Source of the DNA: a virus
Strand: one strand, 5' to 3'
DNA length: 25,944 bases
Virus record (IMG/VR): IMGVR_UViG_3300015199_000019
Coordinates: 1-25,944 of that record
Shown here: positions 2,594-22,906 of the stretch, piece after piece
Position numbering within the stretch: the first letter of the stretch is position 1
Layout: each line of letters opens with the position of its first letter
The notes under the pieces: generated by a model
What the model saw: the letters and a program-made list of their open reading frames with translations, nothing else
Databases searched by the model: none
What the model was told of the DNA's origin: nothing
Made by a program: the position numbers and the translations under genes

Positions 2594-3052
2594 CTAGTTA
2601 AAAGGTACGTCGGACGCTAGGTCGTCTGCGTGCTGCTTGTCGCTGGCCCGCGTCGGCGGCAGTCCCGCAGCCGGTCGTGACGCCTCGCGCGCCTCGCCAC
2701 CGTCGGCGTCGCGCGGCTTCGAGTCCAACATCTGCATGTTTTGCCCTTGCAGCTCGGTCGTGTACATCGTGACGCCGTCTTTGTTTTCCCACTTGCGCGT
2801 TTTCCAGCGCCCGCTGACGTAGACCTTGGCGCCTTTCTTCAAATACTCGGATGCGATCTCGGCCAGCTTGCCGAAGAACACCACGCGCACCCATTCGACA
2901 GCTTCTTTTCTTTCCCCGGTCGCCTTGTCGGTCCACTGCGAGCCGACGGCGATACTGATATTCGCCACCGCCTCGCCGCTGGCCATGTACTTTGTTTCGA
3001 CGTCCTGGCCAAGCCGGCCAATGAATTGGCATAAATTTAGGTCGTTCGACAT
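2594..3052 (-). CDS. ssb: Single-stranded DNA-binding protein
   Basis: This 152-residue protein matches bacterial-type SSB in length and layout. An OB fold occupies residues 1-110 (CQFIGRLGQDVETKY, then EWVRVVFFGKLAEIASEYLK, then KGAKVYVSGRWKTRKW). A flexible Gly/Ala/Arg/Asp linker follows, and the acidic tip DDLASDVPFN closely resembles the DDIPF tail through which SSB recruits partner proteins. It coats single-stranded DNA during replication and strand annealing. It sits downstream of recT and the exonuclease in the same operon, so it probably serves that recombination set as well as phage replication. Confidence 0.95.
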   Translation of the reverse strand: MSNDLNLCQFIGRLGQDVETKYMASGEAVANISIAVGSQWTDKATGERKEAVEWVRVVFFGKLAEIASEYLKKGAKVYVSGRWKTRKWENKDGVTMYTTELQGQNMQMLDSKPRDADGGEAREASRPAAGLPPTRASDKQHADDLASDVPFN

Positions 3053-3146
3053 TTGCCGCTCCTGTCTGGATAAAAAGGTGAGCTACTCGCAACCCCGCCG
3101 GCTTGGCCAGCCACGGCACTGTGCGGATCAGCTTTCGCCCGTCGTT

Positions 3147-3848
3147 CTACGCGCGCTTCTGCGACAAACCTTCCGTGGCCACCGCTTTGACGCCTGGAAT
3201 CTTCATTGCACCGTGCTCGAGCCGCGCCCGACCGTTCAAGTACGTCAGGTTTGCGCTGATGCACTCAATCGGCGCCTCGCCGGTCGCGACCGCTAGCGCG
3301 AGATCCACGAGGCTGACCAACTCGGCGCTCCATGTGACGCGGTGGCTCGTCGACTGCTCGGACTTCGGCACGCCGATGGGGATAACCGGCGCCGCGACCA
3401 TCTGCGACGCCTCTACGAGCGCCGTCGCCGCTTCCGGTGCTGATTCCCTCAGTGATTCGGCCTGCGCTTCCAACGCGGCCCTGGTGCGCGCCGCCTCCTC
3501 GTTGGCAAGCCGCTGCGCCTCGGCGCGCTTCTGCGCTTCGACGCGGTCATAGCCAAGAATCTTTTGCGTCCAGATTGCCTCAGCGCGCTCGAGAAACTCG
3601 GTTGCCGGCCGGTATTGGTCCATGACTGACTTCTTGGCCGCGTCGAGCGGCCCGGTAAGTGCCTTGCGCTTGACGTCGACCACCTTTTTCAGTGACTTCA
3701 CGGCCGACAGGTCTTTGTCGGCAAGCACGCGCAGCTCGGGACAGTCGATGTCGAAGCCTTCCGCGGCCTCGATCAGTGCGGTCGCATCCTTGGCGAACGT
3801 CGCGTCGACGGCTGGCAGTTGGATCCACGGGACAAGTGCTTCGCTCAT
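3147..3848 (-). CDS. Coiled-coil protein of the RecT/SSB recombination module
   Basis: This encodes 233 residues from the ATG at 3848, which overlaps the exonuclease stop (ATGA) and has AAGGAG about 7 bases ahead. The N-terminal two thirds form a long charged helix rich in Ala, Glu, Lys and Arg (for example EAQKRAEAQRLANEEAART), likely a coiled coil. The C-terminus carries a conserved-looking small domain ending in LNGRARLEHGAMKIPGVKAV. Proteins with this layout lie next to recT and ssb in many temperate phages (DUF1351-like, by memory only). A structural or loading role in recombination is inference. The 94 bases between it and ssb hold nothing I can support. Confidence 0.7.
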   Translation of the reverse strand: MSEALVPWIQLPAVDATFAKDATALIEAAEGFDIDCPELRVLADKDLSAVKSLKKVVDVKRKALTGPLDAAKKSVMDQYRPATEFLERAEAIWTQKILGYDRVEAQKRAEAQRLANEEAARTRAALEAQAESLRESAPEAATALVEASQMVAAPVIPIGVPKSEQSTSHRVTWSAELVSLVDLALAVATGEAPIECISANLTYLNGRARLEHGAMKIPGVKAVATEGLSQKRA

Positions 3849-6748: not shown

Positions 6749-6777
6749 AGAGTACTCCACGCTTGGAGCGTTGTCAA
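6749..6777 (-). promoter_or_regulatory. Leftward early promoter PL
   Basis: On the minus strand a consensus TTGACA (6777-6772) is followed after 17 bases by TACTCT (6754-6749). The start site would be near 6742, about 40 bases ahead of the first gene. The -35 box is shared with the distal operator, and the proximal operator fills the spacer, so repressor binding should block polymerase directly. The spacing and mirror match to the rightward promoter make this convincing even though the -10 box is weak. Confidence 0.75.
6755..6768. promoter_or_regulatory. Operator, PL proximal
   Basis: A 14-bp near-perfect palindrome reads CTCCACGCTTGGAG on the plus strand, lying in the -35/-10 spacer of PL. 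It shares the CTCCRC-NN-GTGGRG form with the three other sites near PL and PR. Confidence 0.72.
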
Positions 6778-7713: not shown

Positions 7714-7716
7714 GGT
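7703..7716. promoter_or_regulatory. Operator, PR distal
   Basis: The 14-bp site is CTCCACAGGTGGGT. It overlaps the first base of the PR -35 box and the -35 region of PRM, so it can control both promoters. Confidence 0.7.
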
Positions 7717-7744
7717 TGACATCCTCCGCGAGTGGAGCGACAAT
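7716..7744 (+). promoter_or_regulatory. Rightward early promoter PR
   Basis: A consensus TTGACA (7716-7721), a 17-base spacer and GACAAT (7739-7744, four of six matches) are visible. The start would fall at about 7750-7752, on the ATG of the Cro-like gene. Operators flank the -35 box on both sides. Confidence 0.75.
7724..7737. promoter_or_regulatory. Operator, PR proximal
   Basis: The 14-bp imperfect palindrome CTCCGCGAGTGGAG lies in the PR spacer. It is the counterpart of the proximal PL operator. Confidence 0.72.
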
Positions 7745-7749
7745 GAAGC

Positions 7750-7956
7750 ATGGGAAACGAACACGAATACGTCGTCGGACAGCTTGTAGCGATCCCACGC
7801 TCGGAATGGACTCAGCTTGCGCTGGACTCAGGAGTTCCACGGTCCACCATCGAAAAAATTGCGTATCGCGTCACCAAGCGGCCCTCGTTCACCACGATAA
7901 GCAATTTGTTCACGACGCTGCGGAAACGAATGGATGCGGGTGCGGCTCATGGCTGA
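7750..7956 (+). CDS. Cro-like helix-turn-helix protein
   Basis: This encodes 68 residues, MGNEHEYVVGQLVAIPRSEW onward. The segment WTQLALDSGVPRSTIEKIAY reads as helix 2, turn and recognition helix of a compact DNA-binding domain that fills most of the protein, the usual size for Cro. It is the first gene from PR, divergent from the repressor, so it is the expected lytic-side regulator competing for the same operators. No ribosome site lies before the ATG, and the predicted transcript begins at the ATG itself. It overlaps the CII-like gene by 8 bases. The role is assigned from position and fold, not from close similarity to a known Cro. Confidence 0.75.
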   Translation: MGNEHEYVVGQLVAIPRSEWTQLALDSGVPRSTIEKIAYRVTKRPSFTTISNLFTTLRKRMDAGAAHG

Positions 7957-8266
7957 ATCCTGCGCCGCGAATCCGGTCCTCGCACGAAAGTCGCAGTCGG
8001 CTGTCTTGCAGAGACTTTCATCGGTGGGTCAAAAGCCAGTCGCCGATGCGCTGTCTGTGAGTGAAGCAACGATCTCGCGCATGAAAGCCGAAGGGGTCGA
8101 AACTTTCACGGCCTTTCTCGCGGTGCTGGATCTCAAGGTTGTTCCAGCCACGCACCAGTGCTACGCGCCCGAGTACATCGATCACCTACGCTACTTCGCG
8201 CGGCTCGGTATGGCGGTCGATGACGGCACCCCGCCGCCCGCTGGACCATTGAGCTTTGACGAGTGA
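7949..8266 (+). CDS. cII: CII-like transcriptional activator
   Basis: This encodes 105 residues from the ATG at 7949; an in-frame ATG at 7934 would add five. Residues about 10-60 follow lambda CII closely in pattern: SAVLQRLSSVGQKPVADALS, VSEATISRMKAEG, then TFTAFLAVLDLKVV, matching CII's ESALLNKIAMLGTEKTAEAV, VDKSQISRWK and FSMLLAVLEWGVV. CII binds as a tetramer and switches on repressor and integrase promoters during infection. The C-terminal 30 residues differ from lambda. I did not find a clean TTGC-N6-TTGC target nearby. The 137 bases that follow hold no further gene that I can support. Confidence 0.82.
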   Translation: MAESCAANPVLARKSQSAVLQRLSSVGQKPVADALSVSEATISRMKAEGVETFTAFLAVLDLKVVPATHQCYAPEYIDHLRYFARLGMAVDDGTPPPAGPLSFDE

Positions 8267-12784: not shown

Positions 12785-13065
12785 CGCCAGCGCAGAGACA
12801 CATGGGTCGCGTGGCGCGCGTACCGTGCGTGCTCTGCACGCGCATGGGCTTGGGCGACTCGCCGGCTCTCGTTCATCACATGAAATTGGGCACTGGTGCG
12901 GCAGACCGCGCCAGCGATTTCCTGACAATCGCCTTGTGCCCCGAGCACCACGTGGGCGCCAGTGGTGTGCATACACTCAAAGAGCGAGGGTTACGTTTTC
13001 GGTACAACTGTTCTGAGATTGATCTGCTCGCCGACACAATCGGCGCCATCGCAAGGATGTTATGA
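12781..13065 (+). CDS. HNH protein, Ref/DUF968-like
   Basis: This encodes 94 residues from the GTG at 12781 (GTGA overlap). The pattern RVARVPCVLCTRMGLGDSPA, VHHMKLGTGAADRASD, IALCPEHHVGASGVHTL is the two-CxxC/HH layout of small phage HNH proteins related to the P1 recombination enhancement function (Ref) and to DUF968. P1 Ref uses RecA filaments to direct cutting. Whether this protein depends on RecA is unknown. It overlaps the endonuclease VII-like gene by ATGA, making a two-nuclease pair. Confidence 0.75.
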   Translation: MTPAQRHMGRVARVPCVLCTRMGLGDSPALVHHMKLGTGAADRASDFLTIALCPEHHVGASGVHTLKERGLRFRYNCSEIDLLADTIGAIARML

Positions 13066-14100: not shown

Positions 14101-14637
14101 GTGCAAGCAGAGGGGCTAATGGAACGATGGGTCGCTGTTGTTGGGCACGAGGGCTGGTACGAAGTGTCGACGCTTGGGCGCGTGCGGTCGATCTCGAGAG
14201 ACGTGCTTCGGCGCGGCCGGGGCACTGTCGCGTATCAGGGAGTCGTCTTGAAGACTTGGTTGGACCGCGATGGTTATGTGGAGGTCTCGCTCTGCCGTGA
14301 GGGGCGTCAGCGAACGCAGAAAGTACACACGCTTGTTGCCGCAAGCTTTTTGGGGCCGAAACCTGCCGGCACCGAAATAGCCCACGGGGACGGTGATAAG
14401 ACCAACTGCTCAGTTGACAATCTGCGATATGCAACTCCGGCTGAAAATTCGGCTGATCGCAAGAAACATGGCACTCAAGCCATGGGTCGCGAGGCGTTTG
14501 CGATAAAGCTATCCGCAGATGATGTCGCCGCGATCAGGTCAAGCAAGGATGGACAACGGCTGCTGGCGGCGCGGTTCGGCGTTACTCGCGGCAATGTTCA
14601 GCATGTCCAGAAGGGGAAATCATGGCGGCATGTATGA
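14101..14637 (+). CDS. NUMOD4-HNH homing-type endonuclease
   Basis: This encodes 178 residues from the GTG at 14101, with AGGAGG about 4 bases upstream; the ATG at 14119 is an alternative. The order is a NUMOD4 domain (ERWVAVVGHEGWYEVSTLGR, VRSISRD), then HNH_3 (KVHTLVAASFLGPKPAGTEI, HGDGDKTNCSVDNLRYATPA), then a C-terminal helix-turn-helix (LLAARFGVTRGNVQHVQKGK). This is the classic layout of free-standing phage homing nucleases. It overlaps the Q-like gene by 16 bases, which is unusual for a recent insertion and suggests a settled resident. Confidence 0.88.
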   Translation: MQAEGLMERWVAVVGHEGWYEVSTLGRVRSISRDVLRRGRGTVAYQGVVLKTWLDRDGYVEVSLCREGRQRTQKVHTLVAASFLGPKPAGTEIAHGDGDKTNCSVDNLRYATPAENSADRKKHGTQAMGREAFAIKLSADDVAAIRSSKDGQRLLAARFGVTRGNVQHVQKGKSWRHV

Positions 14638-15233
14638 CGACATTTTCCCCATGGGGCGAGTCAGCCCAGTCTTGTTGTCGGTGGGCTTATGCGCTCCTCG
14701 CGAGCGCCGATGCAATGCCTTCAATCCTGGGCAATCTGCGAACAGGATCGAAGGAAAGGAAGGAGCTGGTCGCGGCCGAGCTTCGGGCCCAGGGTGCCCA
14801 AATCAGAGGGCACGTGGAGCGGATTCACGACCCGATCGCACGGGCCTATCTCATCGCTTTCTACCTGCCGCGGCCGATGGAGGAGCGGCTCGAGGGTGGT
14901 GGCCGAGCGTTCATCGATCGCTTTGGCCAGGAGCGCAACGAGGTCGAGCAACAACTCGCCGTCTGGCTCATGGTGCAACAGGGCACCGGCGCGCACCGCA
15001 CACGCGGCTATCGCGAGATCGTTGCCCAATACTGCCTTGGCAACCGGCTCCTCGACCGCATTCGACGCCTGAGTCGCCAACCCATGGGCATCGATCGCAT
15101 CGCCAAGCTGCTCAAAATGAGGACCAGCGAGGCAACCAAGCGTCGCGAGGAGTGCCGACTGCTCTTGGCCGACCTGGAAAAGCGCGCGCACGCGCTGGCG
15201 GACGAGAAGCTCTACACGGCGGGAATCATCTAA
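14622..15233 (+). CDS. Probable Q-like late antiterminator
   Basis: This encodes 203 residues from the ATG at 14622, with AGGGG about 7 bases ahead; the ATG at 14634 is an alternative. The C-terminal third (GYREIVAQYCLGNRLLDRIR, IDRIAKLLKMRTSEATKRRE) reads as a helix-turn-helix like those of sigma-region-4-type and Q-type proteins, and the rest is helical. The call rests mainly on context. It is the last early gene, and it is followed directly by a consensus promoter, a candidate Q-binding repeat and a terminator, the lambda Q-PR'-tR' layout. I cannot match it with certainty to one Q family. It might instead be a sigma-like or Holliday-resolution accessory protein. Confidence 0.62.
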   Translation: MAACMTTFSPWGESAQSCCRWAYALLASADAMPSILGNLRTGSKERKELVAAELRAQGAQIRGHVERIHDPIARAYLIAFYLPRPMEERLEGGGRAFIDRFGQERNEVEQQLAVWLMVQQGTGAHRTRGYREIVAQYCLGNRLLDRIRRLSRQPMGIDRIAKLLKMRTSEATKRREECRLLLADLEKRAHALADEKLYTAGII

Positions 15234-15269
15234 TGTCGAAAGTGCTTGACAAGGCGGCAATGATCTATG
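15218..15269 (+). repeat. Direct repeat around the late promoter, candidate Q-binding element
   Basis: GGCGGGAATCATCTAATG (15218-15235) and GGCGGCAATGATCTATG (15253-15269) agree at 15 positions with one indel and start 35 bases apart. The second copy fills the promoter spacer, where lambda Q binds. The first overlaps the end of the Q-like gene. Confidence 0.55.
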
Positions 15270-15276
15270 CTAGAAT
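15246..15276 (+). promoter_or_regulatory. Late promoter PR'
   Basis: A perfect TTGACA (15246-15251) is followed 19 bases later by TAGAAT (15271-15276), preceded by TG for an extended -10 (TGCTAGAAT). The start would be near 15283. A -10-like TATTCT (15281-15286) overlaps the predicted start and could hold the sigma-dependent pause that Q proteins need. Confidence 0.75.
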
Positions 15277-15304
15277 TCACTATTCTTGCCATTGTTCCGT
15301 TCAG

Positions 15305-15328
15305 AACCCGCCCTTGTGGCGGGTTTTT
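15305..15328 (+). terminator. Terminator tR' just after the late promoter
   Basis: CCCGCC (15307-15312) pairs with GGCGGG (15318-15323) around a CTTGT loop, flanked by AA/TT pairs and followed by a T run. Without antitermination the late transcript would be only about 45 nt long. Confidence 0.88.
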
Positions 15329-15433
15329 GCGTTCAGTCGGCAGAATTTCCCTCATCGTCGGGGGCCCCGGCGAATGACCCTCCTCCTTCAAACGCTGGAC
15401 AAGCTCCCGGCACCCATCACGGAGACACCCATC

Positions 15434-15991
15434 ATGGCGTCGTTCAAATTCATTGCGGCAAGCAACAGGAAAGGCCCGGCGGGTTCTACCGGTGGTATTC
15501 GAAGTGGTGACCTGCCCGGCAGCGGCGGTGCCAAGCGCAACGTCGACGGCGGGATCAAGTCACGGCACGCCGGCGTTACCTCAAGCGGCACACAGATCAA
15601 GTCGGCCGTGGGCTCGCTAGCCCAACAGGCAACCAGGGTGGCGTCGAGTTACGCCGCCAAGGGTCAACCGCGGGGCTTCGCCGGCGACAAGCGCGAGAAC
15701 AAGGGCTATGTGATGGGCACCGGCACGACCGGCAAGGGCAAGCTGCCGTCCGGCTCGGCGTTTGGCACTCAAAACCTACGCGTCGCGGCCGAGGGCCCGA
15801 CCCCGAAGGGTGCCGACATCGACAATCACCCCAAGATTTACAGCCAAAAGAACAAGAGCCTGACCATGAACGGCATGAAAGCCAAGGTCAAGGGCTTGGT
15901 CGGTGGGTTGTCGGGATCGTTCAATGGCCGCAAGGCAATTGGCCAGACCGGCAATGGTATCGGCGGCAAGCGCAAGCGTTCCTTCGTGTGA
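15434..15991 (+). CDS. Basic Gly/Ser-rich hypothetical late protein
   Basis: This encodes 185 residues from the ATG at 15434, with GGAG 9 bases ahead; an in-frame ATG at 15374 would add 20 residues. The product is rich in Gly, Ser, Lys and Arg (GPAGSTGGIRSGDLPGSGGA at the start, GNGIGGKRKRSFV at the end) with few hydrophobic residues, so it is probably largely disordered and able to bind DNA. It is the first gene after the late terminator and so the first beneficiary of Q. A DNA-condensing or virion-interior role is a guess from composition. The roughly 100-base leader before it holds nothing further. Confidence 0.68.
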   Translation: MASFKFIAASNRKGPAGSTGGIRSGDLPGSGGAKRNVDGGIKSRHAGVTSSGTQIKSAVGSLAQQATRVASSYAAKGQPRGFAGDKRENKGYVMGTGTTGKGKLPSGSAFGTQNLRVAAEGPTPKGADIDNHPKIYSQKNKSLTMNGMKAKVKGLVGGLSGSFNGRKAIGQTGNGIGGKRKRSFV

Positions 15992-16905: not shown

Positions 16906-17117
16906 AGCGCACCGCCCTACTCGCCACCATCAAGCGCAAGCCGCACCTGTGTCTGAATCCTATCCACCGCGGTTCTGGCATGTGGGTGTGCGTAGGCTAC
17001 TGTGGCGACCGGGTCATAAGCAGCCATGGGCTGACCCCGGCGGCGGCTTTCAGGCCATGGAGCGACGCCTATCAGTATCTCCGCTTCCGCAACACCGTCA
17101 CCGCGGGGATGGCGTGA
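16902..17117 (+). CDS. Small hypothetical protein before the terminase
   Basis: This encodes 71 residues. The sequence MKRTALLATIKRKPHLCLNP, MWVCVGYCGDRVISSHGLTP, AAAFRPWSDAYQYL resembles a small family often found near phage packaging or late genes, with a Trp/Gly-rich core and a helix ending. It has ATGA with the previous gene, and its TGA overlaps the GTG of the small terminase. Function unknown. Confidence 0.6.
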   Translation: MKRTALLATIKRKPHLCLNPIHRGSGMWVCVGYCGDRVISSHGLTPAAAFRPWSDAYQYLRFRNTVTAGMA

Positions 17118-17728
17118 GTCTGACCGCCAAGCAGGAGGCATTCGCTCAATTGGTGGCGAGGGGTACGCACCCCACGGACGCTTACCGGGAGGCATACAGT
17201 GCCACCAGTATGAAGCCGGAGAACGTGCGAACAGAGGGTAGCAAACTGGCACGCCACCCCACGGTGGCCCCACGGATAGCCGAATTGAGGGCGCCGGCGA
17301 TTGCCGTCGTCAAAGAGAGTATCGGCCTTGATTTGCAACGTGTTTTGTTGGAGCAGGGGCGACTGGCCACGTTTGACATTGGGTCGATCTATGACCCGGA
17401 GACGAATGAACTGCGCCCGATCAAGGAGTGGACCCCCGCGGCGAGGGCTTCGGTGAAGAAGATCAAGACCCGTGCACTGTTCGGCGAGGGGAGCGATGGC
17501 AAGGGTCAGATAGGGACGGTCACGGAGGTCGATCTTTGGGACAAGACTGGCGCGCTCGAGGCGCTAATGAAGAACCTGGGCGGGTATGCCAAGGATAACG
17601 AACAGAAGAACGACGGCCTGAATGGCCTGTCGCGTGAAGTGCTGAAATTGATCGAGGACCGCATTGGACGACTCATTGCCGGACGACCTGTCCTGGTTGG
17701 AGAAGTTACCGCTCGAAGCGTTAGCTGA
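17114..17728 (+). CDS. terS: Terminase small subunit
   Basis: This encodes 204 residues from the GTG at 17114, which overlaps the preceding stop; a longer frame to 16949 only shadows that neighbour. The opening LTAKQEAFAQLVARGTHPTD, AYREAYSATSMKPENVRTEG, SKLARHPTVAPRIAELR is the standard helix-turn-helix start of Terminase_2-type small subunits that recognise the packaging site. A central beta-rich part (IGTVTEVDLWDKTGALEALM) and a helical C-terminus follow. It overlaps the large subunit by 65 bases, which is long for this genome. Confidence 0.9.
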   Translation: MSLTAKQEAFAQLVARGTHPTDAYREAYSATSMKPENVRTEGSKLARHPTVAPRIAELRAPAIAVVKESIGLDLQRVLLEQGRLATFDIGSIYDPETNELRPIKEWTPAARASVKKIKTRALFGEGSDGKGQIGTVTEVDLWDKTGALEALMKNLGGYAKDNEQKNDGLNGLSREVLKLIEDRIGRLIAGRPVLVGEVTARSVS

Positions 17729-19115
17729 CATCCGAGGCAAGGTGCAGGAGCGTTTGAAGCGCAGCCGGATTTGGGATTTCTACCCCGATGATGGCCCGCT
17801 GCGGCGGGAGCTGTACCCGAAGCACCAGGAGTTTCTTGGTGCTGGCGTAGGCGCCCGGGTGCGAATGCTTATGGCGGCGAACCGGGTCGGCAAGACCGAG
17901 GGCTGCGGGCTCTACGAGACCGTGCTGCACATGACTGGGCTCTATCCGGCGTGGTGGAAGGGCAAGCGCTTCGATCGGCCAGTCAAGGTCTGGATCTGTG
18001 GGGAGTCGAACAAGGCGGTGCGCGAGTCGCTGCAATTCAAGCTCCTCGGGCCGTGGAATCACTTTGGCACTGGCCTGATCCCTGCCGAGCAGTTTGTGAA
18101 GCACACGTCTAAGGCCGGCGTCCCAGAGACCGTCGATACGTTCATGGTCCGCCACGTCAGCGGCAAGACCAGTACGGGCGTCTTCAAGAGCTACGAGCAG
18201 GGCGCCATGGAGTTTGCATCCTCGGAACAGGACGTGATTCTGCTCGACGAGGAGCCGAGTCTTGAAATCTTCGCCGAGTGCGTCATGCGAACCATGACGA
18301 CCGGCGGGATCATCATGCTCACCTTCACGCCCTTGGGCGGGGTGACGAAGCTCATCAAGCATATGCGCGAGTCGGGCGCCTACGAGGTCGGGGCGACGTG
18401 GGATGACGTGCCCCATCTGTCGGCGTCGATGAAAGAGGAATTGTGGAACGCGACGCCGGCCTACATGCGCGATGCGCGCGCCAAGGGCATACCAGCTCGA
18501 GGCAGCGGCGTGGTCTTCCCGGTGTCCGAGGAAACCATTACCTGCGAGCCGGAGCGATTGCCGGGCATCTTCCCGTCGATCATTGGGCTCGATTTCGGTT
18601 GGGATCACCCGAGCGCCGCGGTCAAGATGATCCACGACCGCGACAGCGACATCATCTACGTGGTGGCCATCCATCGGCAGCGCGAGGCGACGCCGCTCAT
18701 GTTCGCCGAGGGTATCAAGCCTTGGGGCACCTGGTGCCCGGTAGCGTGGCCACACGATGGCTTGCAGCACGACAAGGGATCTGGCATCGAGCTCGCCGAG
18801 TTGTACCGGAAGCAGGGTTTGAACATGCTGCCGAAGCCGGCGAGCTTCAACGACGACAAGCTGGACAACAGCGTCGAGGCGGGGGTCGCTGGCATGCTCG
18901 ACCGGATGCAGTCGGGGCGGTTCAAGGTCATGGAGCACCTGACCGACTGGTTTACTGAGTTCCGCGACTACTACCGTGAAGACGGGGTCATCGTGAAAGA
19001 GAACGATGATTTGATGTGCGCGACGCGGTACGCCTACATGATGCTGCGCTACGCCAGGACCAAGCCGCGGACGTCGAATCTCGAGGAACGGCCGAGAAAT
19101 TGGCGAGTGACGTGA
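17664..19115 (+). CDS. terL: Terminase large subunit
   Basis: This encodes 483 residues from a TTG at 17664 with GAGGA 5 bases ahead. The N-terminal ATPase has Walker A AANRVGKTE (about 71-79), Walker B with catalytic glutamate DVILLDEEP (about 190-198) and coupling motif TFTPLGG (about 220-226). The C-terminal RNase-H-like nuclease has IGLDFGWDHPSA (first aspartate about 310), WPHDG (about 362-366) and NDDLMCATRYA (last acidic residues about 448-449). It is full length for a P22/podovirus-type packaging motor. It powers DNA translocation through the portal and cuts the genome. Confidence 0.95.
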   Translation: MDDSLPDDLSWLEKLPLEALADIRGKVQERLKRSRIWDFYPDDGPLRRELYPKHQEFLGAGVGARVRMLMAANRVGKTEGCGLYETVLHMTGLYPAWWKGKRFDRPVKVWICGESNKAVRESLQFKLLGPWNHFGTGLIPAEQFVKHTSKAGVPETVDTFMVRHVSGKTSTGVFKSYEQGAMEFASSEQDVILLDEEPSLEIFAECVMRTMTTGGIIMLTFTPLGGVTKLIKHMRESGAYEVGATWDDVPHLSASMKEELWNATPAYMRDARAKGIPARGSGVVFPVSEETITCEPERLPGIFPSIIGLDFGWDHPSAAVKMIHDRDSDIIYVVAIHRQREATPLMFAEGIKPWGTWCPVAWPHDGLQHDKGSGIELAELYRKQGLNMLPKPASFNDDKLDNSVEAGVAGMLDRMQSGRFKVMEHLTDWFTEFRDYYREDGVIVKENDDLMCATRYAYMMLRYARTKPRTSNLEERPRNWRVT

Positions 19116-19754: not shown

Positions 19755-19762
19755 CTTATTCA

Positions 19763-19790
19763 GAGGCACCTTCGGGTGCCTTTTCTTTTT
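19763..19790 (+). terminator. Intrinsic terminator with UUCG loop, inside the late operon
   Basis: GGCACC (19765-19770) pairs with GGTGCC (19775-19780) around the stable TTCG tetraloop, followed by TTTTCTTTTT. It lies between the tRNA-like element and the genes leading to the portal, so portal expression needs antitermination or partial read-through. Confidence 0.9.
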
Positions 19791-19817: not shown

Positions 19818-20234
19818 GTGGCTAACGTCACCTTCGGCGAGAACGCGCGCAAGCAGGGCGTCTACGGCGACATCGCATGGAGCCTTCAGTACGTCAACGC
19901 CGAGGAAAGCCTAGTGCTGACCCGCGCGCTGGCACTGACCAAGGCGAATTCGGGCGAGCACCGGCCGATCGTGGTCATTGGCCTGTCGTCGGCGCACAAG
20001 TACACCGCATCAAACGAGCGTGAGCTGCGCTGGCTCATCCGGGCGACCAAGAGTTACGCCGAGTTCCTCGGCTTTGAGCCCTCCAAATTCATCGTCCATC
20101 GCCTGATCGACTTGATCCAGAAAATGCTGATCGAGCTGGTTGTGATGAAGCCGATACCACAATCGTTGTTGCCCAAGCAGGAGCAGGTTCACATGGAAAT
20201 CAAGGGCAACAAGGTCGACCTGGTACTCCATTGA
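19818..20234 (+). CDS. Hypothetical protein upstream of portal, start possibly frameshifted
   Basis: The frame gives 138 residues from the GTG at 19818 (VANVTFGENARKQGVYGDIA, then IVVIGLSSAHKYTASNEREL). No domain is recognised, but it reads as a mixed alpha/beta protein. The only good ribosome site, GGAGGC, serves an ATG at 19805 in another frame that stops after six codons (MGKTSG). Dropping one A from AAAA (19811-19814) would join that ATG to this frame as MGKRVANVTFGEN. So either a one-base insertion has occurred or the ribosome slips or reinitiates. The stop overlaps the portal start. Confidence 0.65.
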   Translation: MANVTFGENARKQGVYGDIAWSLQYVNAEESLVLTRALALTKANSGEHRPIVVIGLSSAHKYTASNERELRWLIRATKSYAEFLGFEPSKFIVHRLIDLIQKMLIELVVMKPIPQSLLPKQEQVHMEIKGNKVDLVLH

Positions 20235-22906
20235 GCGAGTACGACGCGACGCAAAACTTCGCAATGTCGCCCATGGAGTCAACGCTCGGCGGTCAGAAGT
20301 CACCGAGCGACAGCAAGAGCACGTCCAAGGCTTCGACCAAGCTCGATAGTCCAGAAAACAAGAAGGTGCTGCGGCAGCTCGAGGAGTGGTACGAGGTCGA
20401 GCGCATCCGCCAGGCGCCGAATCGCTATCAACAGGCGATCGACGACGACTTCTACGACGGTTTGCAGTGGTCCGATGAAGACGCGCAGGAGTTGGCTCTG
20501 CGCGGTCAGGCGCCACTGGTTTACAACAAGGTGCAGCCGGCAGTGAAGTGGCTCACCGGTACGGAGAAGCGGACCCGGATCGACTACAAGATCCTGCCGC
20601 GCAAGGACAACGGCGTCAACGAGGCCGAGAACCTCACCAAACTGCTCAAGTACGTGCAGGACGTGAACAAGGCGGCGTATGCGCGCTCCCGCGGCTTTGA
20701 GGATGCGATCAAGGTCGGCTGCGGCTGGCTCGAATGCGGTATTCGCGGCGACCCCACCAAAGAATTGCTGTACAGCCGCGCCGAGTCGTGGCGGAACATC
20801 ATTTACGACAGCCAGGCGTGGGAGTTCGACCTGTCGGACGCGCGCTATATGTTCCGGCAGAAGTGGACCGATCTGGACATCGCTGAAGCGTTGTTTCCGA
20901 AGCGGGCCCAGGCGCTCAAGAGCGCCTCGGTCTATTCCGACTACAGTGATGCGCAGGACAACGAGGAGTGGTATCTCGGTCAGATCTTGCAGGAGCGCGC
21001 TGCCGATGGCTCGGTGATGAACCGGCGCACGTTCGTCGATACCAGCTCGAGCCTGTTCAACCGCCGCTCGCGGGTCAAGATGATGGAGTGCTGGTTTAGG
21101 AAGCCGACGGCGATCAAGTACATCGATTCGTCGGGCACCGAGCATCACAGCAAGGAATACGACCCCGAGAACGAAGCGCACGTTCAGCTCATCAAGGCCG
21201 GCAACGGTGACTTGTACGACCGGTTGGGGATGAAAATGTGGTGCGCGATCTACATTCGCGGCACCTTGCTTCAGTTGATGAAGTCGCCGTACCGGCACAA
21301 CGACTTTCCGTTCACGCCGATCTGGGGCAATCGCCGGGCCCGCGACCACGCGCCCTACGGGATCATTCGCGTCATTCGCGACCCGCAGGAGGACTTCAAC
21401 AAGCGGATGAGCAAGGCGCTGCACGCCCTGTCGAGCCGGCGCATTGTCATGGACGTGGGTGCGGTCGACGACATCGAGGAATTGCGGCTCGAGGCAGCGC
21501 GGCCGGACTCGATCATCGCCAAGAACAAGGGTTCCGAGCTTGAAATGCACACCGACGCGGACATCGCGGAGGAGCACATCAAGTACGCCAACCTGGATGA
21601 GAAGGCGATTCAGGATAACAGCGGCGTGACCGACGAGTTGATGGGTCACAAGACCAATGCCGTTTCTGGCATAGCGATCGAGAAGCGGCAGGACCAAGGC
21701 AGTACGGTCACGACCGACTTCTTCGACAACCTGCGTCTGGCGACTCAGCTCCATGGCCAGAAGGAATTGTCGCTGATCGGCCAGTACTACTCGGAGGAGA
21801 AGCAGATCCGGGTCATCGGCTCGAAGCGGCCGGACGACTTTGTGACGATCAATCAGCGTCAGCCGGACGGCTCGATTCTGAACGACATCACACAGACCGA
21901 GTGTGACTTCGTGGTTGACGAGACCGACTTCAAGGCCACGGCGCGACAGGCAATGTTCGAGACGCTCCTCGCCATGGTGACGGAGCTGATGAAGGTCAAT
22001 CAGAACCTTGGCATGTTGCTGCTCGACGACGTCATGGAATTCTCGGACATTCCGGGCAAGGAAGAAATGGTCGCGACGATTCGCCAGATCAGCGGCAAGC
22101 CGGACCCGAACAAGAAGCTCACGCCGCAGGAGCAGCAAGCGGCGCAACAGAAGGCGCAGCAAGACCAAGCCGAGCAGGATGAAATGAAGCAGCTACAGGT
22201 TCAGGAAGTCCAGGGCAAGGTCGCCGGACTCATGGGCAAGGCCAAGGAGCTTGACGCGCGCGCAGGGCTCCTTGACGCGCAGCGCCAAGAAATCGGACAG
22301 GGCGACGGCGGGGCGAGCGATTTGGCGCAGAGCTACAACGACAAGATGCAGTCGCTCCACGACGACACGGCGAAGGTCATCGATCAGCTTCGCAAGGAAA
22401 TCCTCGTGTTGGAGAAGCAGGTCTCGACCGCCGATGTACGTGCGGTCGATCACTCGCGCGACGCCGCGGTGAAGCAGCACGGCATCGAGCGCAAGTATGA
22501 GGCCGACATGGCCAAGATCGCCAGCACGGAGAAGATCGCGGCAATGAACGACCGCACCCAAGAGGCCATTGGCAAGAACGACCGGGTCATCGAGGGCTTG
22601 AAGGAGCAGGAGGCGAGCCTGTCGCAAATGCTCGGCGAGCTCGACCAGAAGAAGGCCGATAAGCCAACGCCGCAGGAAGAAGCAAAGGCGATGATTGATG
22701 AACACAACACGCAGATCGCCGCCAAGGCCAAGGACGATCAGACCAAGGATGCGATTGGCGCAGTTAAGGACGTGGCGAGCACGCCAGATCCGCGACTCGA
22801 GCGGTTGGCCTCCTCGGTGGAGAAGGCTCACGCCGCCGTTAAGGATCTACACGAGAAGCACGCTACGTTAGCGAAAAAAATGACCAAATCGAGGAACGAC
22901 AAATGA
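20231..22906 (+). CDS. P22-type portal protein with a long C-terminal helical extension
   Basis: The start is a TTG at 20231 overlapping the preceding stop; the ATG at 20264 is an alternative. It encodes 891 residues. The first 620 resemble P22-family portals: RQAPNRYQQAIDDDFYDGLQ, LVYNKVQPAVKWLTGTEKRT, then FPFTPIWGNRRARDHAPYGI, IRVIRDPQEDFNKRMSKALH and GVTDELMGHKTNAVSGIAIE. The portal forms the ring through which DNA enters and to which TerL docks. Residues about 630-891 are Gln/Lys/Glu-rich with heptad-like helices, longer than the P22 barrel (P22 portal is 725 residues). This extension might act as an extended barrel or replace a separate scaffold. Confidence 0.92.
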   Translation: MSEYDATQNFAMSPMESTLGGQKSPSDSKSTSKASTKLDSPENKKVLRQLEEWYEVERIRQAPNRYQQAIDDDFYDGLQWSDEDAQELALRGQAPLVYNKVQPAVKWLTGTEKRTRIDYKILPRKDNGVNEAENLTKLLKYVQDVNKAAYARSRGFEDAIKVGCGWLECGIRGDPTKELLYSRAESWRNIIYDSQAWEFDLSDARYMFRQKWTDLDIAEALFPKRAQALKSASVYSDYSDAQDNEEWYLGQILQERAADGSVMNRRTFVDTSSSLFNRRSRVKMMECWFRKPTAIKYIDSSGTEHHSKEYDPENEAHVQLIKAGNGDLYDRLGMKMWCAIYIRGTLLQLMKSPYRHNDFPFTPIWGNRRARDHAPYGIIRVIRDPQEDFNKRMSKALHALSSRRIVMDVGAVDDIEELRLEAARPDSIIAKNKGSELEMHTDADIAEEHIKYANLDEKAIQDNSGVTDELMGHKTNAVSGIAIEKRQDQGSTVTTDFFDNLRLATQLHGQKELSLIGQYYSEEKQIRVIGSKRPDDFVTINQRQPDGSILNDITQTECDFVVDETDFKATARQAMFETLLAMVTELMKVNQNLGMLLLDDVMEFSDIPGKEEMVATIRQISGKPDPNKKLTPQEQQAAQQKAQQDQAEQDEMKQLQVQEVQGKVAGLMGKAKELDARAGLLDAQRQEIGQGDGGASDLAQSYNDKMQSLHDDTAKVIDQLRKEILVLEKQVSTADVRAVDHSRDAAVKQHGIERKYEADMAKIASTEKIAAMNDRTQEAIGKNDRVIEGLKEQEASLSQMLGELDQKKADKPTPQEEAKAMIDEHNTQIAAKAKDDQTKDAIGAVKDVASTPDPRLERLASSVEKAHAAVKDLHEKHATLAKKMTKSRNDK

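Follow-up and report, generated by a model that had tools for sequence, protein, structure and literature searches.

A proposed Q-type late-gene switch with an unfamiliar Q-like protein in a lambdoid podovirus record

Does a strong promoter that runs almost at once into an intrinsic terminator, directly behind an orphan gene at the end of an early operon, mark a phage late-gene switch of the Q type, and does the orphan gene encode its antiterminator? We addressed this question for the IMG/VR virus record IMGVR_UViG_3300015199_000019, a likely fragment of 25,944 bp that was analysed over its whole length (the window). A sequence-only reading had proposed a compact switch of a Q-like gene, a late promoter (PR') and a terminator (tR') with a direct repeat as candidate Q site. 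The follow-up makes it likely that the locus is a Q-type late-gene switch, and its Q-like protein appears to come from a family not described before. The novelty lies in that family; the layout is that of the textbook switch of lambda and P22.

Lambdoid gene plan of the record

The record is best read as a temperate lambdoid podovirus. It has a lambdoid control region with a CII homolog (7934..8266, + strand; PF05269, E 4e-7, over the Pfam cut-off), and weak HTH matches in Pfam were obtained for a minus-strand cI-like repressor-like gene and a cro-like gene. CII is followed by genes for DUF1376, a DnaB-like helicase, a Ref-type nuclease, an endonuclease VII-like protein and NUMOD4/HNH, then by the Q slot, and beyond it by Terminase_2, TerL and a P22-like portal (20231..22906, + strand; PF16510, E 8e-155). 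The nearest named relatives of the portal are Bcep22-like podoviruses, and EBPR podovirus 1 heads the phage relatives of TerL among the matches listed. The regulator gene at 14634-15233 closes the early rightward operon, with CII, replication and nuclease genes before it and the late genes behind it.

At 13062 and 14634, neighbouring genes share an ATGA, a kind of overlap typical of the nin regions of lambdoid phages (PMC8022706). The second of these overlaps, with the stop of the HNH gene, favours 14634 as the start of the Q-like gene; the start at 14622 given in the sequence-only reading is possible but less likely. The NUMOD4/HNH gene itself (14101-14637), of the homing endonuclease type, is inserted immediately before the Q-like gene. 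At the other end of the switch, the small Lys-rich protein that stands first behind the Q switch of MW202481.1 may be compared with the product of 15434-15991. The features of the locus are collected in Table 1.

Table 1. Features of the early and late control regions in the window; positions with a sign are relative to the predicted start site.
Feature	Position	Strand	Remarks
Probable PR of the early operon	7716..7744	+	TTGACA-17-GACAAT; 11.2 bits; second-best + strand promoter
Q-like protein gene, proposed processive antiterminator	14634..15233	+	199 aa
Upstream repeat copy, over gene end	15218..15232	+	GGCGGGAATCATCTA; about -65 to -51
-35 element of proposed PR'	15246..15251	+	TTGACA
Spacer repeat copy, candidate binding element	15253..15267	+	GGCGGCAATGATCTA; about -30 to -16
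Extended -10	15268..15276	+	TGC-TAGAAT; -10 hexamer 15271-15276; spacer 19 bp
-10-like element, candidate sigma-dependent pause element	15281..15286	+	TATTCT; about -2 to +4
Intrinsic terminator, proposed tR'	15305..15328	+	from about +23
First late gene	15434..15991	+	185 aa; basic, Gly/Ser/Lys-rich orphan
Small terminase subunit	17117..17728	+	Terminase_2 (Pfam)
Large terminase subunit (TerL)	17664..19115	+	
Second strong intrinsic terminator, late operon	19762..19790	+	terL–portal interval

Promoter, terminator and direct repeat

With a sequence score of 14.2 bits, PR' is the best promoter on both strands of the record, and its score was equalled in one of 60 single-strand shuffles of the window. 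At 19 bp the spacer is long and suboptimal, so PR' probably depends on the extended -10. With the predicted start at about 15283, the terminator would span roughly +23 to +46. Its hairpin (15305-15325) reads AACCCGCC-CTTGT-GGCGGGTT, with a stem of eight pairs followed by TTT in a U tract, and the hairpin in the leader RNA has a predicted energy of -18.7 kcal/mol (z -3.25). Within 15277-15302, TATTCT is the top hexamer of the -10 matrix (5.5 bits). PR' and tR' form the sole pair of promoter and terminator no more than 70 nt apart in the window, and the pair scores 19.0, against a maximum of 18.4 among 133 related loci (1.56 Mb, both strands). The promoter, -10-like and terminator elements all lie where the sequence-only reading had put them, far above chance as judged by scores, shuffles and related loci.

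The same reading had called the leader unusually short. It is of ordinary length: in the P22 record, PR' starts at 37887 and tR' spans 37917-37945, hence about +31; the terminator of EBPR podovirus 1 begins at +23; and in one AlpA target, PA0807, it lies 26 bp past the start (PMC7969949).

From 15.3 to 25.6 kb, the + strand contains no promoter above 9 bits besides PR'. A promoter that has to overcome two terminators for genes with no other promoter is, we infer, the situation that calls for processive antitermination. A single gene at 15233-15991 was considered and rejected, since the frame is open but the terminator would be translated (NPPLWRVF).

The direct repeat, described in the sequence-only reading as a candidate Q site, is real and only moderately unlikely. 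Its copies agree at 13 of 15 positions and stand 35 bp apart on either side of the -35 element. An equally good repeat arose in one of 200 shuffles for 15-mers and in two of 200 for 18-mers, or about 1 in 100 by chance, and the score was reached in five of the 344 150-bp windows of the record. In phage 21, the 6-bp repeats recognised by 21Q lie near -21 and -13, 8 bp apart and inside the spacer (PMC6606751), and AlpA uses a 6-bp element from -25 (PMC9371919). Because the spacer copy covers the zone bound by 21Q and AlpA, 15253-15267 is taken as the likely binding site of the Q-like protein. Only this half of the earlier claim is convincing; the copy over the gene end (-65 to -51) falls outside that zone, and its role as a binding element is hypothetical. 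An element of the 21Q type (two 6-bp direct repeats with 8-bp spacing in the spacer) is absent, the best candidates at such spacing being 5-mers with four of five positions matched.

Whether the repeat is instead a chance or structural similarity, with the switch using another sequence in the spacer, is evenly balanced. The shuffles and window counts above show that scores as high do occur by chance, and the upstream copy shares its bases with codons, further out than known Q complexes reach; against this, 13 of 15 identities are uncommon and one copy sits in the spacer zone of 21Q and AlpA binding. The point concerns a detail and is compatible with a Q-type switch either way.

The Q-like protein and its relatives

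The Q-like protein had no match in Pfam (none at E<=1), PHROG, NCBIfam or PDB sequences, and direct searches of phages, plasmids, viral contigs, genome contigs and 398 genomes returned only chance hits in antisense frames. Matches to L052-L054 were dismissed as noise. The Pfam models of lambda Q (PF03589), 21 Q (PF06530) and 82 Q (PF06323) did not match the protein either, and the known Q models found nothing in 25 TerL-related records. These models are narrow, because they also miss gp41 of EBPR podovirus 1, a likely Q.

Relatives of the protein were reached through profiles. In 36 loci related to the window via the helicase gene, a family of orphan proteins of about 160 aa (L074, L065 and others; the L074 family) is encoded where the early operon ends. 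A profile of this family built without the window put the window protein at the head of the window's ORFs, at an E-value of only 0.07, and in hhalign it outscored 899 of 900 unrelated ORFs and each of 200 shuffles. A profile scan then yielded a protein of a provirus, L182, that bridges the two. It shares 27% identity over 124 aa and a TGxHxxRG motif with the window protein, at a raw score of 73 that was reached by none of 1000 shuffles and none of 3,885 unrelated ORFs. Of the five ORFs ranking next, four are members of the L074 family. The L182 protein matches that family in hhalign at 97.4% (E 1e-11), and the profile of the window and L182 proteins does so at 94.6% (E 6.5e-8). By these sequence comparisons, the window protein is assigned as a homolog of the L182 protein and joins, via L182, a family made up of some 35 orphan proteins of environmental phages.

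The L182/L183 provirus is lambdoid, with a minus-strand HTH repressor-like gene, DUF1376, a DnaC-like gene, a NinB-like gene, a Ref nuclease (PF16786) and a gene in the RusA position, names without a Pfam match having been assigned by eye. The homolog (3001-3513) is followed by a small gene, a promoter at 3721 (TTGATT-17-TAGAAA) that is weak (6.8 bits), a terminator near 3787 and, on the same strand, an M15-peptidase-like lysis gene. This gene order places the homolog in the classical Q slot there too.

The L074-family phages inspected have convergent genes downstream, so membership in that family does not by itself imply a Q function; the ends of its genes, where promoters and terminators are frequent, were for the same reason rejected as proof of it. 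As an observation in its own right, the genes L074:12273-12860 and L088:4380-4975, those of L065 and L067, and others often have a strong promoter in the same direction behind them, with a terminator close by, the next genes inspected running the opposite way.

Structure prediction depended on the family. AlphaFold2 on the single sequence gave a model of no use (pLDDT 44), whose fold matches did not include AlpA. With 24 family members, the model reached a pLDDT of 67 and a pTM of 0.55 and is predicted to be all helical, with a C-terminal HTH-like region. In VIA-align, the best solved match of this family-based model was AlpA in its loading complex (7xya_G), at Z 7.8 with the next at 5.2, where values below 8 can reflect a chance arrangement in helical proteins; the alignment covers 128 residues at an rmsd of 5.0 and 17% identity. 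Foldseek gave AlpA an E-value of 2.8, yet the highest TM among the matches listed (0.43/0.53). No AlpA chain was among the PDB sequence hits at E<=10. AlpA and 21Q are alike in fold but not in sequence (PMC9371919). With moderate confidence, we take AlpA as the best structural match of the model, a match that is suggestive only, because the tool itself gives this warning, and that becomes more telling because the chain ranked first acts in antitermination, as the layout had already suggested for the window protein.

It is conceivable, though we consider it rather doubtful, that the window protein, the L182 protein and roughly 35 L074-type proteins constitute a new antiterminator family that has its origin and its mechanism, a ring in the RNA exit channel, in common with AlpA and possibly with 21Q. 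Such a family would link phage Q to a bacterial death-pathway regulator and would load via a two-site element flanking the -35.

Proposed switch, known systems and alternatives

In the switch that we propose, the strong, constitutive sigma70-type PR' (15246-15276) would start transcription near 15283, and unaided RNA polymerase would stop at tR'. The last early gene (14634-15233) would supply a helical DNA-binding protein that acts by antitermination. While the polymerase pauses at the -10-like TATTCT, this protein would bind the promoter spacer at the copy 15253-15267 and load onto the enzyme, which would then read through both tR' and the later terminator at 19762. Transcription would thereby extend over the late genes, from 15434 through terminase and portal and beyond. 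The core of the sequence-only reading, a late switch of this type with an unfamiliar Q-like protein, is well supported by the layout, the lambdoid gene order, the arrangement in EBPR podovirus 1 and the homolog in the Q slot of L182. Counted against it are a protein without a match to known Q families, a model of moderate quality, the weak promoter of L182 and the suboptimal 19-bp spacer.

Among described systems, P22 gene 23 and lambda Q (PF03589) show the same order of a Q gene last in the early operon, a promoter directly after it, a near terminator and the late operon behind; the window differs from both in the lack of a PF03589 match, in the combination of a TTGACA -35 with a 19-bp spacer and in the sequence of that spacer. 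Phage 21 Q (PF06530) is comparable in the direct-repeat element lying partly in the spacer, the -10-like element, here a candidate pause element, and the HTH protein, but its 6-bp repeats, 8 bp apart, are both at the spacer, whereas here 15-bp copies 35 bp apart flank the -35, and PF06530 does not match. Pseudomonas aeruginosa AlpA is alike in being the best structural match of the model, in the terminator at +26 of one of its targets and in a single, here putative, spacer element; unlike the window protein, to which it has no detectable sequence similarity, it governs host lysis genes and not a phage late operon. Caulobacter GTA GafZ resembles the proposed switch in a binding element between -10 and -35 and in antitermination by a new protein type, but needs GafY and IHF and has its terminator after the first gene (PMC11150451).

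A parallel in arrangement is EBPR podovirus 1 (JF412294.1), whose TerL is 43% identical to that of the window. Its promoter (TTGACA-17-CAGAAT) and terminator lie directly after gp41 and before terS and terL, and the pair ranks third best in the 133 related loci. Its gp41 resembles a phage protein annotated as antitermination protein Q (38.5%, E 2e-7) and not the window protein. The gp41 gene (L049:7250-7850), hypothetical in the annotation, likely encodes a Q with its own promoter-terminator switch before terS.

Initiation-type late activators are used by other phages. By this precedent, the protein could be a conventional activator or repressor of initiation at PR', with a terminator that either leaks or closes the early operon, and with no antitermination; the C-terminal HTH-like region would suit such a role, and the repeat around the -35 would suit a two-site operator. 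We consider this improbable: the promoter is near consensus with an extended -10, so no activator is needed, a terminator 23 nt past the start would block the promoter anyway, and the homolog and the neighbouring genes fit a Q slot. It is very improbable that the terminator merely ends the early operon and that the promoter-like sequence is accidental or the source of a small RNA of roughly 45 nt. Terminators at operon ends are common, and L074-family genes often have them there between convergent genes; in the window, by contrast, the downstream genes are co-directional and without another strong promoter up to 25.6 kb, and no promoter in the record outscores this one, whose pair with the terminator beats all others in the related DNA. 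The Q-type switch with a Q-like protein is the reading that we retain.

At least five types of Q protein have been described (PMC8022706), and Q proteins are a standard case of unrelated sequences with the same job. A further type, known only from uncultured phages and one provirus and perhaps with an AlpA-like fold, would test a single origin of these antiterminators. It would also show a route to unrecognised Q genes, by way of a promoter-terminator pair right behind the last early gene.

A search for CII boxes of an antisense promoter in the Q gene gave matches at chance level, none of them perfect inside the gene. Elsewhere on the minus strand, a promoter-like site in the nin-like region (13085-13057, TTGATA-17-TAACAT, 12.0 bits) could give an antisense transcript, and TTGACA-17-TACTCT at 6777 (11.5 bits) is possibly the leftward early promoter.
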